From Bdellovibrionia bacterium (GTDB lineage: Bacteria; Bdellovibrionota; Bdellovibrionia; Bdellovibrionales; UBA1609): a stretch of 34,422 nt of DNA. Position numbers and translations under genes: made by a program. The stretch covers positions 1 through 34,422 of the forward strand of contig JAUILT010000029.1 in NCBI GenBank assembly GCA_030432925.1. The letters are read 5' to 3'. Under the pieces are notes generated by a model, which saw only the letters and a list, made by a program, of their open reading frames with translations, had not been told where the DNA came from and searched no databases. How positions within the stretch are numbered: position 1 is the first letter of the stretch; every line of letters starts with the position of its first letter. Positions 11,275 to 19,698 of this stretch are shown one piece after another.

Positions 11275-11889
11275 ATGACAGGAACAGGATTGCCTCCACA
11301 GGCCTACACAAAAGAAACATTGGCGAAAGCCTACGAATGGGTAAAGAGCCAACCTGGTGATATTCGCCGAGCAGCCACATCGTCAGATACTCTTGTGGGC
11401 CTCTACCTCAGTGCTCAAAGAAGAAGGCAAGAAGGCTTTGACAGCTTTTATGACAGAAACCGTTCGCAGAAAACAACAGATTCTACACCGGTTTCAGGAG
11501 AAGAGTTTAAAAAGGAGTTAAAAAACCTGGCTATTGGATTGAACGAGTTTGTCGATGACAGGGAGGCTTCTAGAATACCGCCCTCCCCGTTAACAGCGCC
11601 GCCCCCCCAGGTGACACTCTCGCCGCCCCCTCACGCCCACCCAACAGCCACCCATGGGGCCACTACGATCACCCAGCCCCAGCCCAACTCACTCCGGTTT
11701 TCGGGGGAGGTCCAAAAGACCTCCTCCCGACAGACCACCTCCTCAGTCATTGAAGACCTCGATCCAGTGAGCCAGCAGCGCCTGGCAACGATCAAAACTT
11801 CACTGAATCTAAGTTCGGAGACAGAAGCCCTCCGCATGTTGATCGCCCTGGGTTTTGAAAAGATAAAAGGAGTCTTGCCCTCTTCCTAA
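11275..11889 (+). CDS. unknown protein with Pro-rich linker and ribbon-helix-helix-like C-terminus
   Basis: A 204-residue protein with no signal peptide. Three parts are visible. Residues 1-105 are charged and mostly helical (YTKETLAKAYEWVKSQPG and LVGLYLSAQRRRQEG). Residues about 102-145 are a low-complexity linker of Pro, Thr, His and Ala, coded by GC-rich DNA that includes seven consecutive C (11602-11608). Residues about 160-204 read LDPVSQQRLATIKTSLNLSS then ETEALRMLIALGFEKI, which resembles a ribbon-helix-helix (CopG/MetJ-type) DNA-binding unit with one strand and two helices. The ATG lacks a Shine-Dalgarno site. Neighbours are a two-component system upstream and ileS downstream, with no obvious functional link. 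A DNA-binding role is inference; I cannot name the family. Confidence 0.65.
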   Translation: MTGTGLPPQAYTKETLAKAYEWVKSQPGDIRRAATSSDTLVGLYLSAQRRRQEGFDSFYDRNRSQKTTDSTPVSGEEFKKELKNLAIGLNEFVDDREASRIPPSPLTAPPPQVTLSPPPHAHPTATHGATTITQPQPNSLRFSGEVQKTSSRQTTSSVIEDLDPVSQQRLATIKTSLNLSSETEALRMLIALGFEKIKGVLPSS

Positions 11890-11927: not shown

Positions 11928-11956
11928 TTGACTATCGCGGTCCGTCTTTCTACAGT
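11928..11956 (+). promoter_or_regulatory. predicted promoter of the ileS-lspA operon
   Basis: TTGACT (11928-11933, 5/6), a 17-base spacer and TACAGT (11951-11956, 4/6). Transcription would begin near 11963, directly at the foot of the long hairpin, leaving a leader of about 107 bases before the ileS start codon. Confidence 0.45.
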
Positions 11957-11964
11957 CAGCAGCG

Positions 11965-12040
11965 AGAAGCGGTCTCAAAAATACCACCGGCTACGAAGCT
12001 AGTCGGCTTCGTAGCCGGTGGTATTTTTGAGACCACTTCT
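11965..12040 (+). repeat. 29-bp perfect inverted repeat (leader hairpin) before ileS
   Basis: The left arm 11971-11999 and right arm 12006-12034 are exact reverse complements over 29 bp, separated by the six bases TAGTCG. One mismatch (C11970/A12035) and five further pairs (AGAAG 11965-11969 with CTTCT 12036-12040) extend the stem to 35 positions. No T tract follows, so it is not an ordinary terminator. It also lacks the features of a T-box leader: there is no specifier stem, and the antiterminator would have no room. It occupies the predicted 5' end of the ileS mRNA and stops 17 bases before the ribosome-binding site. It could be an mRNA-stabilising or translation-tuning hairpin, a protein-binding site, or a small palindromic repeat element inserted in the gap. 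Confidence 0.9.
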
Positions 12041-12069
12041 GAAAAACCCATACCCATAGAGGCGTTGCC

Positions 12070-14832
12070 GTGTCGGATCTCACCGAAAAATACAAACAGA
12101 CCATCTTGCTTCCAAAAACAGATTTTCCTATGAAAGCCAACATGACTCAAAACGAACCGGCGCGTATTGAATGGTGGAAGAAAAATGACATTCACGAAAA
12201 GATGGTGAGTTCCAATACTGACAAAGGGCCCTTCTGTATGCCGGATGGTCCTCCTTATGCCAACGGCGATCTTCACCTGGGTCACGTGCTGAATAAGATG
12301 CTCAAGGATATGGTGATCAAGTCCCGCAACATGCTGGGTTACCGTGCCCCGTTGATTCCTGGTTGGGATTGCCATGGGCTTCCTATTGAACTGAAAGTCA
12401 CATCCCGTCTTGGCGAAAAAAGAAAATCTATGACCGACACTGAGGTTCGCGATGAGTGCCGTAAAGAGGCCATGAAATGGGTGGAGGCCCAGAAAGAACA
12501 GTTCATCCGTCTTGGAATTTTCGCACGCTGGTCAGCCCCCTGGTTGACACTGCAGCCGGAGTATGAGGCTGAAGAAGTGCGTCTTCTAGGTAAAATTTTG
12601 GACAACGGCATTTTATTTCGAGGCGAAAAACCAGTGTATTGGGACACCCAGCTGCAAACAGCACTCGCCGCTGCAGAAGTGGAGTACCAAGATCACAGAA
12701 GCCCTTCCATTTATGTGAAATTCAATGTGGAAAAGGGTCTGGAAAAACTGGGTCACCCCACTCAACCAACCTCCTTTGTGATCTGGACAACAACTCCATG
12801 GACACTGCCTGCTAACTTTGGAATCTGCCTGAATGCCAACTTTGAGTACGGTGTGTATGAGTTGGATGGTGAGAATATTATTATTGCCAAAGAGCTTCAG
12901 AAGGCTTTTGAGGCAGATACAGAGAAAGTCCTCACTCTGAAAACCACAGTGATGGGAAAAGATCTGGAAGGCATGCTGGCCCGGCACCCATTTCTAGACC
13001 GTGAATCCAAAGTGATTCTAGGAGACCACGTGACTCTAGAAGCCGGAACCGGATGTGTTCACACGGCCCCTGGTCACGGTATTGACGATTACAATGTGGG
13101 AACCCGTTATGATCTGCCGGTTTACAGTCCCGTAGATGGTGAAGGAAAGTTCACTGCTGATGTGGATTTTCTCGAGGGCATCAGCATTTGGGATGCCAAT
13201 AAAACCATCGGGCAAAAGCTAGAGGAGTCCGGCCACCTGATAGCCCTGAAATTTATCAAACACAGTTATCCCCATGGTCCCCGCTCAAAATCGCCATTGA
13301 TTTTTAGAGCCACGCCCCAGTGGTTTATCCGCATGGACGACGAAAGTTATGGCCTTCGCAAAAAAGCTCTTGAAAAAGTGGAGTCAGACATTCGCTTTGT
13401 ACCTGACTGGGGCCAGCAACGATTGAGAGCCATGATCACCAACGGACCTGACTGGTGTGTCTCCCGTCAAAGAGCCTGGGGAGTTCCCATTCCTGTGCTC
13501 TATTGTGAAGACTGTGGTGAAGCGCTTATGGATTCTGAGTTTCTCAATGAAGTGGCTGACAAAATGGAAAAGTCTGGAAAAGGAATTGAAGCCTATTTCA
13601 CCGCTGAAGACAAAGAGCTCGCTGGAGATAGAAGATGTGAGTCCTGTGGAAATCAGAATTTTAAAAAGGGCACCGACATTCTAGATGTGTGGTTTGACAG
13701 TGGCGTTTGTCATGCCGCTGTTCAGAGAAAACACCCTGACCAGGCATTTCCTGCTGACATTTATCTTGAAGGCAGCGACCAACACAGAGGTTGGTTTCAA
13801 ACCAGTCTGACATCCTCTATTGCCGCTACCGGTGAGGCCCCCTTTAAGGCCCTGGTCACCCACGGCTTTGTCAACGATGCCAAAGGAAAGAAAATGTCCA
13901 AATCCCTGGGCAACGGAATGGACCCTGCCGATGTCATCAAGAAAAGTGGGGCTGAAACTTTACGTCTTTGGGCTGCCCATGAAGACTATGGCCAGGACGT
14001 CACTGTTGGTGATGAAATGCTGAAAAGAATCAATGAAGCCTACAGACGCTTTCGAAACACCTTTCGGTTTATGCTGGGAAACCTGGATGACTTTGATCCT
14101 CAAAAAGACATGGTCAATTTCAAGGATATGCCGGAACTGGATCAATGGGCCCTGGTCCGACTCAACAATCTCACCTCCAAATGCCTGGACCACTACGAAA
14201 ACTACCTGTTTTTCAAAGTGTTCCACGCTCTGAACAATTTTTTTGTGGTGGATTTGTCCGCGACCTACCTAGATATTCTCAAAGACCGTCTGTACACATG
14301 GAAAAAAGATGGGCCCGAAAGGCGGTCCTCTCAGACGGTGATTTACCACTTGGTGGATTCCCTATCCCGATTGATGGCCCCCATGGCTTCATTTCTGGCA
14401 GAAGAGGCCTACGAACATTTCAAAGGAAAATCCAAAGAGTCTGTATTTATGGAGACTTTCCCTGCCATCAACAAGGATTGGACGGATACCAAGCTAGAGC
14501 AGAAATTTGAGACTCTTCTTGAAGTCCGGTCTGTCGTCTCCAAGGAACTAGAAGACTTAAGAAAAAACAAAACCATTGGCTCCAGCCTAGATGGCGATAT
14601 AACTATCACAGCCCCCGAAGCGACACATAAAACCCTGGAGTCCTATGAGGCCCACCTCAAAGAGCTATTTATTGTCTCCAAAGTCCGTCTTCAAAAAGGA
14701 GACGAGCTGCGCGTAGAGGCAAAAAAAGCCTCCGGAGAAAAATGTGTGCGTTGCTGGAATTATTCTGATGTAATAGGAGAGAAGGCAGATCTTCCTGGAA
14801 TCTGCCCCAAATGTGTGAGGGCTTTTGAATGA
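12070..14832 (+). CDS. ileS: isoleucyl-tRNA synthetase
   Basis: A 920-residue class I synthetase that charges tRNA-Ile. The HIGH signature appears as HLGH at 69-72, inside GPPYANGDLHLGH. The KMSKS loop is at 608-612. An editing domain with the conserved TTTPWTLPAN lies near residue 240. The anticodon-binding region follows KMSKS, and the C-terminal zinc finger uses Cys892, Cys895, Cys912 and Cys915. A second pair of CxxC motifs (YCEDCG and RCESCG) flanks the mid-section at about residues 478-525, as in other bacterial IleRS. Length is normal for the family. The GTG at 12070 is supported by AGAGG seven bases upstream. lspA overlaps the stop by ATGA, so the two are co-transcribed. Control probably involves the long leader hairpin. 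Confidence 0.98.
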   Translation: MSDLTEKYKQTILLPKTDFPMKANMTQNEPARIEWWKKNDIHEKMVSSNTDKGPFCMPDGPPYANGDLHLGHVLNKMLKDMVIKSRNMLGYRAPLIPGWDCHGLPIELKVTSRLGEKRKSMTDTEVRDECRKEAMKWVEAQKEQFIRLGIFARWSAPWLTLQPEYEAEEVRLLGKILDNGILFRGEKPVYWDTQLQTALAAAEVEYQDHRSPSIYVKFNVEKGLEKLGHPTQPTSFVIWTTTPWTLPANFGICLNANFEYGVYELDGENIIIAKELQKAFEADTEKVLTLKTTVMGKDLEGMLARHPFLDRESKVILGDHVTLEAGTGCVHTAPGHGIDDYNVGTRYDLPVYSPVDGEGKFTADVDFLEGISIWDANKTIGQKLEESGHLIALKFIKHSYPHGPRSKSPLIFRATPQWFIRMDDESYGLRKKALEKVESDIRFVPDWGQQRLRAMITNGPDWCVSRQRAWGVPIPVLYCEDCGEALMDSEFLNEVADKMEKSGKGIEAYFTAEDKELAGDRRCESCGNQNFKKGTDILDVWFDSGVCHAAVQRKHPDQAFPADIYLEGSDQHRGWFQTSLTSSIAATGEAPFKALVTHGFVNDAKGKKMSKSLGNGMDPADVIKKSGAETLRLWAAHEDYGQDVTVGDEMLKRINEAYRRFRNTFRFMLGNLDDFDPQKDMVNFKDMPELDQWALVRLNNLTSKCLDHYENYLFFKVFHALNNFFVVDLSATYLDILKDRLYTWKKDGPERRSSQTVIYHLVDSLSRLMAPMASFLAEEAYEHFKGKSKESVFMETFPAINKDWTDTKLEQKFETLLEVRSVVSKELEDLRKNKTIGSSLDGDITITAPEATHKTLESYEAHLKELFIVSKVRLQKGDELRVEAKKASGEKCVRCWNYSDVIGEKADLPGICPKCVRAFE

Positions 14833-19149: not shown

Positions 19150-19644
19150 ATGTATGTGAACTCATTGTATCCCATTGTCTGTTTGCAGATTTTTCTGCTG
19201 ACTCTGTCTTTTTACAGTCAGGCACAAGAGCCTTTTATTCAAAATATTTCTTCCAATAAGTTGTCTTATAGAGTTCATGCAAAAGAGTGTCGCTCTTTGG
19301 ATACTTCTTATTTTGGGTGGTCCAAAAAAGATTTAATTTGTGTACAAACCTTGGAACACAGTGCTCCCGAGTCTATTTCACACTTTGTTACTGTCATCAG
19401 AAACAATACCTCTACTCACTATTTTCTCGCTGACCCGGTCTACTCAGAGTATGACGGAGGTGAAGAAGCAGCAGCTGTGGAGTACCCCTCAATGACCTAC
19501 TTATTAATCAGCTTGGACTCCGAAAGGGTTGGAGTGGGTTCCATTGAGTTTGTGTTCAAAACTGTCAGAGATCTAGAAAACTTTGATATTCACTTTATCA
19601 CTGGTATAACTCCAGAACGATTACTCTTTGTCAGTGATATATAA
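19150..19644 (+). CDS. small secreted protein of unknown function
   Basis: A 164-residue protein. ATG 19150 is preferred because TAGG lies nine bases upstream; the TTG at 19141 is too close to that site. A signal peptide covers roughly residues 1-26 (hydrophobic IVCLQIFLLTLSF, likely cut after SQAQ). The mature part is about 135 residues with only one cysteine and looks mixed alpha/beta; no domain recognised. The gene follows the substrate-binding lipoprotein by 94 bp and could share its transcript. It ends inside the first base of the downstream hairpin. Function unknown. Confidence 0.65.
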   Translation: MYVNSLYPIVCLQIFLLTLSFYSQAQEPFIQNISSNKLSYRVHAKECRSLDTSYFGWSKKDLICVQTLEHSAPESISHFVTVIRNNTSTHYFLADPVYSEYDGGEEAAAVEYPSMTYLLISLDSERVGVGSIEFVFKTVRDLENFDIHFITGITPERLLFVSDI

Positions 19645-19698
19645 TACCGATCCGGAAAGAACCCGGATCGGTATAAACCTCCGATAGGCTTCGGAGGT
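19644..19698. terminator. two back-to-back hairpins between convergent transcripts
   Basis: Hairpin 1: ATACCGATCCGG (19644-19655) pairs perfectly over 12 bp with 19663-19674, loop AAAGAAC. Hairpin 2: ACCTCCGA (19677-19684) pairs over 8 bp with TCGGAGGT (19691-19698), loop TAGGCT. They lie between the plus-strand secreted protein and the end of flgE on the minus strand. Neither has a good T tract, so termination may rely on Rho or on stalling, or the stems may protect the 3' ends of both mRNAs. Confidence 0.6.

Follow-up and report, generated by a model that had tools for sequence, protein, structure and literature searches.

A perfect hairpin in an ileS leader is very probably a short non-autonomous element of the IS5 family

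Introduction

The closest described elements are insertion sequences of the IS5 family (NCBIfam NF033580, transpos_IS5_3; Pfam PF13340 and PF01609), of which the copy on the Leptospira weilii plasmid pLiSL17 ends in TTAGAACCCATCTCAAAAA...TTTTTGAGATGGGTTCTAA, is flanked by TA and has the terminal layout TAGAA-NNNN-TCTCAAAAA; in elements of this type the transposase gene runs into the terminal repeat. The element in the ileS leader described here shares that end layout, related copies share the TA flanks, and its tips are likewise found at the ends of transposase genes. It differs in being only 76 bp long with no coding capacity, and in the letters of its tips (GCGGTCTC as against CCCATCTC).

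Other families of small repeats offer partial parallels. A Correia copy in Neisseria lies downstream of the mtrCDE promoter, and the transcript forms a long duplex which is cut by RNase III (PMC10969869). The ileS element also sits immediately downstream of a promoter, where a long duplex transcript cleaved by RNase III is a prediction only; its terminal sequence is unrelated, and Correia copies have promoter and IHF sites. The SPRITE, RUP and BOX elements of Streptococcus pneumoniae are small dispersed repeats, the first of them terminator-like (PMC10969869); the resemblance is one of small dispersed form, since sequence and host are unrelated. The REP/REPIN palindromes associated with RAYT are short, dispersed and intergenic as well, whereas the ends and target of the ileS element fit an IS5-type DDE transposase. 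A literature search on IS5 MITEs as palindromes or hairpins, and on MITEs or REPs of Bdellovibrio, returned nothing specific.

Results and Discussion

The hairpin in the ileS leader

The window, by which we mean the whole 34,422-nt stretch of DNA analysed, contains ileS, encoding isoleucyl-tRNA synthetase (12070-14832, forward strand, GTG start). In its leader, two perfectly matching arms of 29 bp (11971-11999 and 12006-12034) enclose a 6-nt loop and extend to 11965-11999 and 12006-12040 with 34 of 35 positions paired, exactly as the initial annotation had described them. We refer to the resulting 76-bp palindrome of two 35-nt arms and a 6-nt loop (11965-12040, no strand assigned) as family A. 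It begins with a left terminal inverted repeat of IS5-family type, AGAAGCGGTCTCAAAAATA (11965-11983, forward strand), and ends with the right one, AGAAGTGGTCTCAAAAATA (12022-12040, read on the minus strand), for which other copies have T at the same position. Between the two lies an inner stem-loop, CCACCGGCTACGAAGC-TAGTCG-GCTTCGTAGCCGGTGG (11984-12021), set between AAAAATA and TATTTTT; its core CCACCGGCTACGAAGC taken by itself has 21 exact matches among viral contigs. The flanks are GA on the left (11964-11965) and TG on the right (12040-12041), at the places where related elements carry a TA target duplication. At 76 bp the element is non-coding and holds no transposase gene, and MITEs are generally shorter than about 600 bp and without one.

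Such pairing had been said not to arise by chance. After this hairpin, the longest perfect stem in the window measures 12 bp, and none above 10 bp appeared in 20 mononucleotide shuffles of the same sequence. Folded as RNA, the leader reaches -66.4 kcal/mol, where shuffled sequences average -24.6 (z -12.4). From the 3' edge of the hairpin it is approximately 18 nt to a GAGG-type ribosome site and 29 nt to the GTG start.

The ileS promoter and the leaders of relatives

The promoter proposed previously, TTGACT-17-TACAGT, is present at 11928-11956 on the forward strand, with a predicted RNA start near 11963, and comparison with relatives backs it: a promoter of the form TTGACN-N16-18-TANNNT recurs near the ileS start codon in many of 29 relatives, at a distance from the start similar to that in the window once 76 bp are removed. 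From promoter to GTG there are 113 nt in the window; subtracting the element leaves 37 nt, and the congener G001 has 39-41 nt. The congeners have diverged too far for the empty site to be matched base by base. Because removal of the 76 bp restores the promoter spacing, the element appears to have entered near +3 of the ileS transcript as predicted, and the comparison with relatives supports placing the stem in the 5' UTR of ileS.

The hairpin itself is absent from all 29 related ileS leaders, including those of the two congeners, and the longest perfect stem found in them is 7 bp; no relative conserves the stem. Together with the restored spacing, these 29 leaders amount to empty sites, though not base-exact ones. 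The gene upstream (11275-11889, forward strand) stops 75 bp ahead of the hairpin and is syntenic with ileS in both congeners. Upstream of its own ileS promoter, the congener G001 carries another palindrome, imperfect and unlike this one, ATTCCGTATTC...GAATACGGAAT (L084).

Copies of the element in the genome

Other copies of the 76 bp were sought in the assembly from which the window comes (G000; 3.04 Mb in 172 contigs, about 96% complete), and the copy numbers given here derive from sequence searches. A second full palindrome of 76 bp is found on contig C105 (36305-36380), with 93% identity over 74 bp. These two are the only full copies known in the assembly; a third, on C106, is truncated and has lost most of one arm, and some 15 tip copies occur elsewhere. 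With up to 2 mismatches allowed, the 18-nt tip AGAAGYGGTCTCAAAAAT matches the assembly 21 times and the reversed control does so twice; no excess of this tip was seen in 39 relatives, again including both congeners. Half copies on C22, C33 and C171 have about 40 bp (TAGAAGCGGTCTCAAAAATACCACCGTAGCGAGAGGCTGA) in common before they diverge. The element is therefore dispersed, as MITEs are, and this is the result that the initial annotation had named as counting against control specific to ileS.

On C105 the palindrome separates two convergent genes, the left of which takes its stop codon from the TAG tip, and the flanks are TA/TA, unlike the GA/TG at ileS. A rough ORF analysis places many half copies, too, at the 3' ends of genes or in the gap between converging ones (C106, C171, C114, C138, C67), and in this the ileS copy stands apart, sitting between a promoter and its gene. 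One base pair is changed on both arms between copies, being G-C in C153 and T-A in C105, a double difference that fits selection, recent insertion or hairpin-templated repair.

Terminal repeats in other organisms

The distribution of the tips was followed by scanning for AGAAGYGGTCTCAAAAATA in a single genome from each species. The 19-mer tip is found at 31 loci from many phyla, where by our own estimate about 4 would be expected by chance, and many of these loci are near contig ends, which is where unassembled insertion-sequence copies typically fall. In 27 of 32 tip sites the preceding base is T, giving TA. Where tips are paired they enclose elements of 57-196 bp, mostly with TA on both sides; a TA/TA duplication is thus seen at the C105 copy and at most paired-tip elements elsewhere, as opposed to GA/TG at ileS.

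The same tips also bound transposase sequences. One locus (L160) is a 374-bp deletion derivative with both tips and TA flanks, inside which remains the N-terminal region of an IS5 transposase (54% identity to a Leptospira transposase, E 3e-20). At five further loci (L143, L168, L161, L144, L159) the tip forms the 3' end of a gene for an IS5-type transposase, and in contigs of Candidatus Binatia/Binatota and two others the transposase stop codon falls within the repeat (...RQYF*, TATTTTTGA). The terminal repeats of the ileS element therefore match the ends of insertion sequences. In the Bdellovibrionales MAG ND5_Bin_65 there are folded MITEs of 177-196 bp with the same or variant tips (L157, L150, L167 and L148, the last with AAAAGCGGTCGC). 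Three of them (L157, L150 and L167; 177-179 bp) share tips, TA flanks and a folded interior with the window element, and the interior beside one tip (CCGTAGCGAGGCTGA) resembles the half copies on C22, C33 and C171; they are more than twice the length of the window copy, which has little beyond its arms. The ND5_Bin_65 MITEs are probably longer relatives of it.

Searches of G000 for an IS5-type transposase with family A ends (AGAAGCGGTCTC) found none in this approximately 96% complete assembly, and none of its four PF01609 remnants has such ends. A mobilizing transposase in the same genome is expected for active MITEs and is not strictly required. Transposase neighbors in Deinococcus and Rhodothermus showed no clear matching ends. 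Two other sources of transposase were considered and rejected: for an IS630/Tc1 origin, G000 has a single DDE_3 gene, with neither family A nor family B (described below) ends around it, and for a REP/REPIN-RAYT system it has one Y1 transposase match, below the curated cut-off.

Origin of the hairpin

Since the same tips bound MITEs, an IS5 remnant and the ends of IS5 genes, the window element reads as an IS5-type MITE reduced to little beyond its arms. Its dispersed copies, its IS5-type ends, the TA flanks of related elements and its absence from the ileS leaders of relatives all argue for insertion, and we consider it very probable that the hairpin is a 76-bp non-autonomous MITE of the IS5 family which transposed, in the lineage of this species, to a point shortly after the conserved ileS promoter. 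Its origin as a very short subfamily of known IS5-type MITEs is well supported. Transposase would have been supplied in trans, with the element inserting at a TA-like site. Weighing against this reading are the GA/TG flanks at ileS, where the TA duplication is not intact, the failure of the searches to find an IS5-type transposase with these ends in G000, the small number of full copies, of which two are known, and a divergence of the congeners that prevents a base-exact comparison. Of the two readings offered initially, the palindromic repeat or insertion thus stands on its copies, its ends and its absence from relatives, and the new synthetase control falls, the stem being unconserved and the C105 copy lying at unrelated genes.

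Possible effects on the ileS transcript

The initial annotation denied the element the form of a terminator and of a T-box, and only the second point holds. An Rfam scan gave no T-box match at E values up to 1 and no other leader family; what it did return were generic hairpin models (miRNA models, psRNA14), all below threshold. However, the GC-rich core CCACCGGCTACGAAGC-6-GCTTCGTAGCCGGTGG has A5 and T5 runs on its sides, so that a GC-rich stem is followed by a T-run on both strands, which is the form of a bidirectional intrinsic terminator; a d'Aubenton-Carafa-type score is positive for each strand.

With a palindrome this close to perfect, any transcript across the element would fold into a 30-bp hairpin, which at ileS would start some 2-3 nt past the predicted +1 and leave the ribosome site free. 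The core of A-run, stem and T-run would be expected to terminate transcription intrinsically, in part and in both directions. The long duplex in the RNA would be a likely substrate for RNase III, by the precedent of Correia at mtrCDE. If ileS is essential and TTGACT-17-TACAGT is its promoter, some read-through at the hairpin has to occur. Given its position and form, a regulatory role of the hairpin at ileS is possible.

One such role would be co-option, whereby ileS expression is now governed by the 5' hairpin of its mRNA, acting as a stability cap, an attenuator or an RNase III switch, with arms kept perfect by selection. Consistent with this are the position, at the predicted +1 of a gene that is presumably essential, the terminator-like core, the retention of 34 of 35 arm pairs while both TA flanks have changed, and the pair that differs on both sides between C153 and C105. 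Yet perfect arms need no selection: recent insertion, or hairpin-templated homogenization between the arms, would yield the same pairing. Near-perfect arms are also seen at C105, where the copy separates convergent genes, and nothing similar is found in any other ileS leader of the family. We hold co-option to be very unlikely, and give no better prospects to the proposal that an IS5-type MITE captured at +1 has become the working 5' control hairpin of ileS in this species (terminator or RNase III switch), with arms identical via either selection or hairpin-templated repair. The presence of the element can be explained without any gain for the control of ileS.

The hairpin might alternatively be an ordinary intrinsic terminator of the host, belonging to the upstream gene and unusually long by chance. 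Its terminator form on both strands, the end of that gene 75 bp before it and the convergent genes around the copy on C105 would suit this, but the hairpin lies downstream of the conserved ileS promoter, shares its sequence with other loci and has the ends of a mobile element, and we rate the explanation as very unlikely. The element may terminate transcription; its origin is other than a host terminator. A new leader control of an aminoacyl-tRNA synthetase, conserved in the lineage, is hardly credible: it has the placement between promoter and ribosome site in its favor and is refuted by the 29 leaders that lack the stem, besides the copies at unrelated loci and the want of a T-box or other Rfam leader family. 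A fold-back chimera from assembly or amplification, of which a perfect inverted repeat in an assembly fragmented into 172 contigs would be a typical signature, is exceedingly improbable in view of the conserved gene order in the flanks, an independent second copy differing at several positions, and tips that match insertion-sequence ends of other organisms.

With the IS5-type MITE as the preferred reading, a candidate new class of synthetase leader is removed and is replaced by a mobile element whose ends are common to several phyla. The locus suggests that the promoter of a gene presumed to be essential can be followed directly by a 30-bp hairpin with full pairing, and it provides a natural test of how far a 5' hairpin or terminator is tolerated in a transcript.

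Other palindromic families

At least two further families of palindromic repeats are present in this genome and unseen in congeners, which makes the lineage useful for following the birth and decay of MITEs. Family B, a second MITE family with TAGTGTCGTAACCAATAAA ends, has 27 end matches in G000 and no excess in the congeners; several of its members are palindromic elements of 165 bp whose ends are identical, and one has been reduced to about 62 bp (copies at C106:3659-3823, C120:31613-31777 and 43865-44029, C147:13302-13466, C167:29010-29174 and C118:689-750, among others). At two junctions (C67:12270-12303 and C171:953-1003; L059 and L114) the end of a family B element directly adjoins a family A tip, with a TA in common, resembling the insertion of one element at the margin of the other. 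The third family, GATCCGG-YTTGAATTTT-CCGGATC with a conserved loop, has 15 copies in G000 (on C95, C149, C30, C130, C161, C4, C27 and others) and none in two congeners. Within the window, a perfect 12-bp hairpin at 19644-19674, ATACCGATCCGG-7-CCGGATCGGTAT, has the stem of this third family and a different loop.
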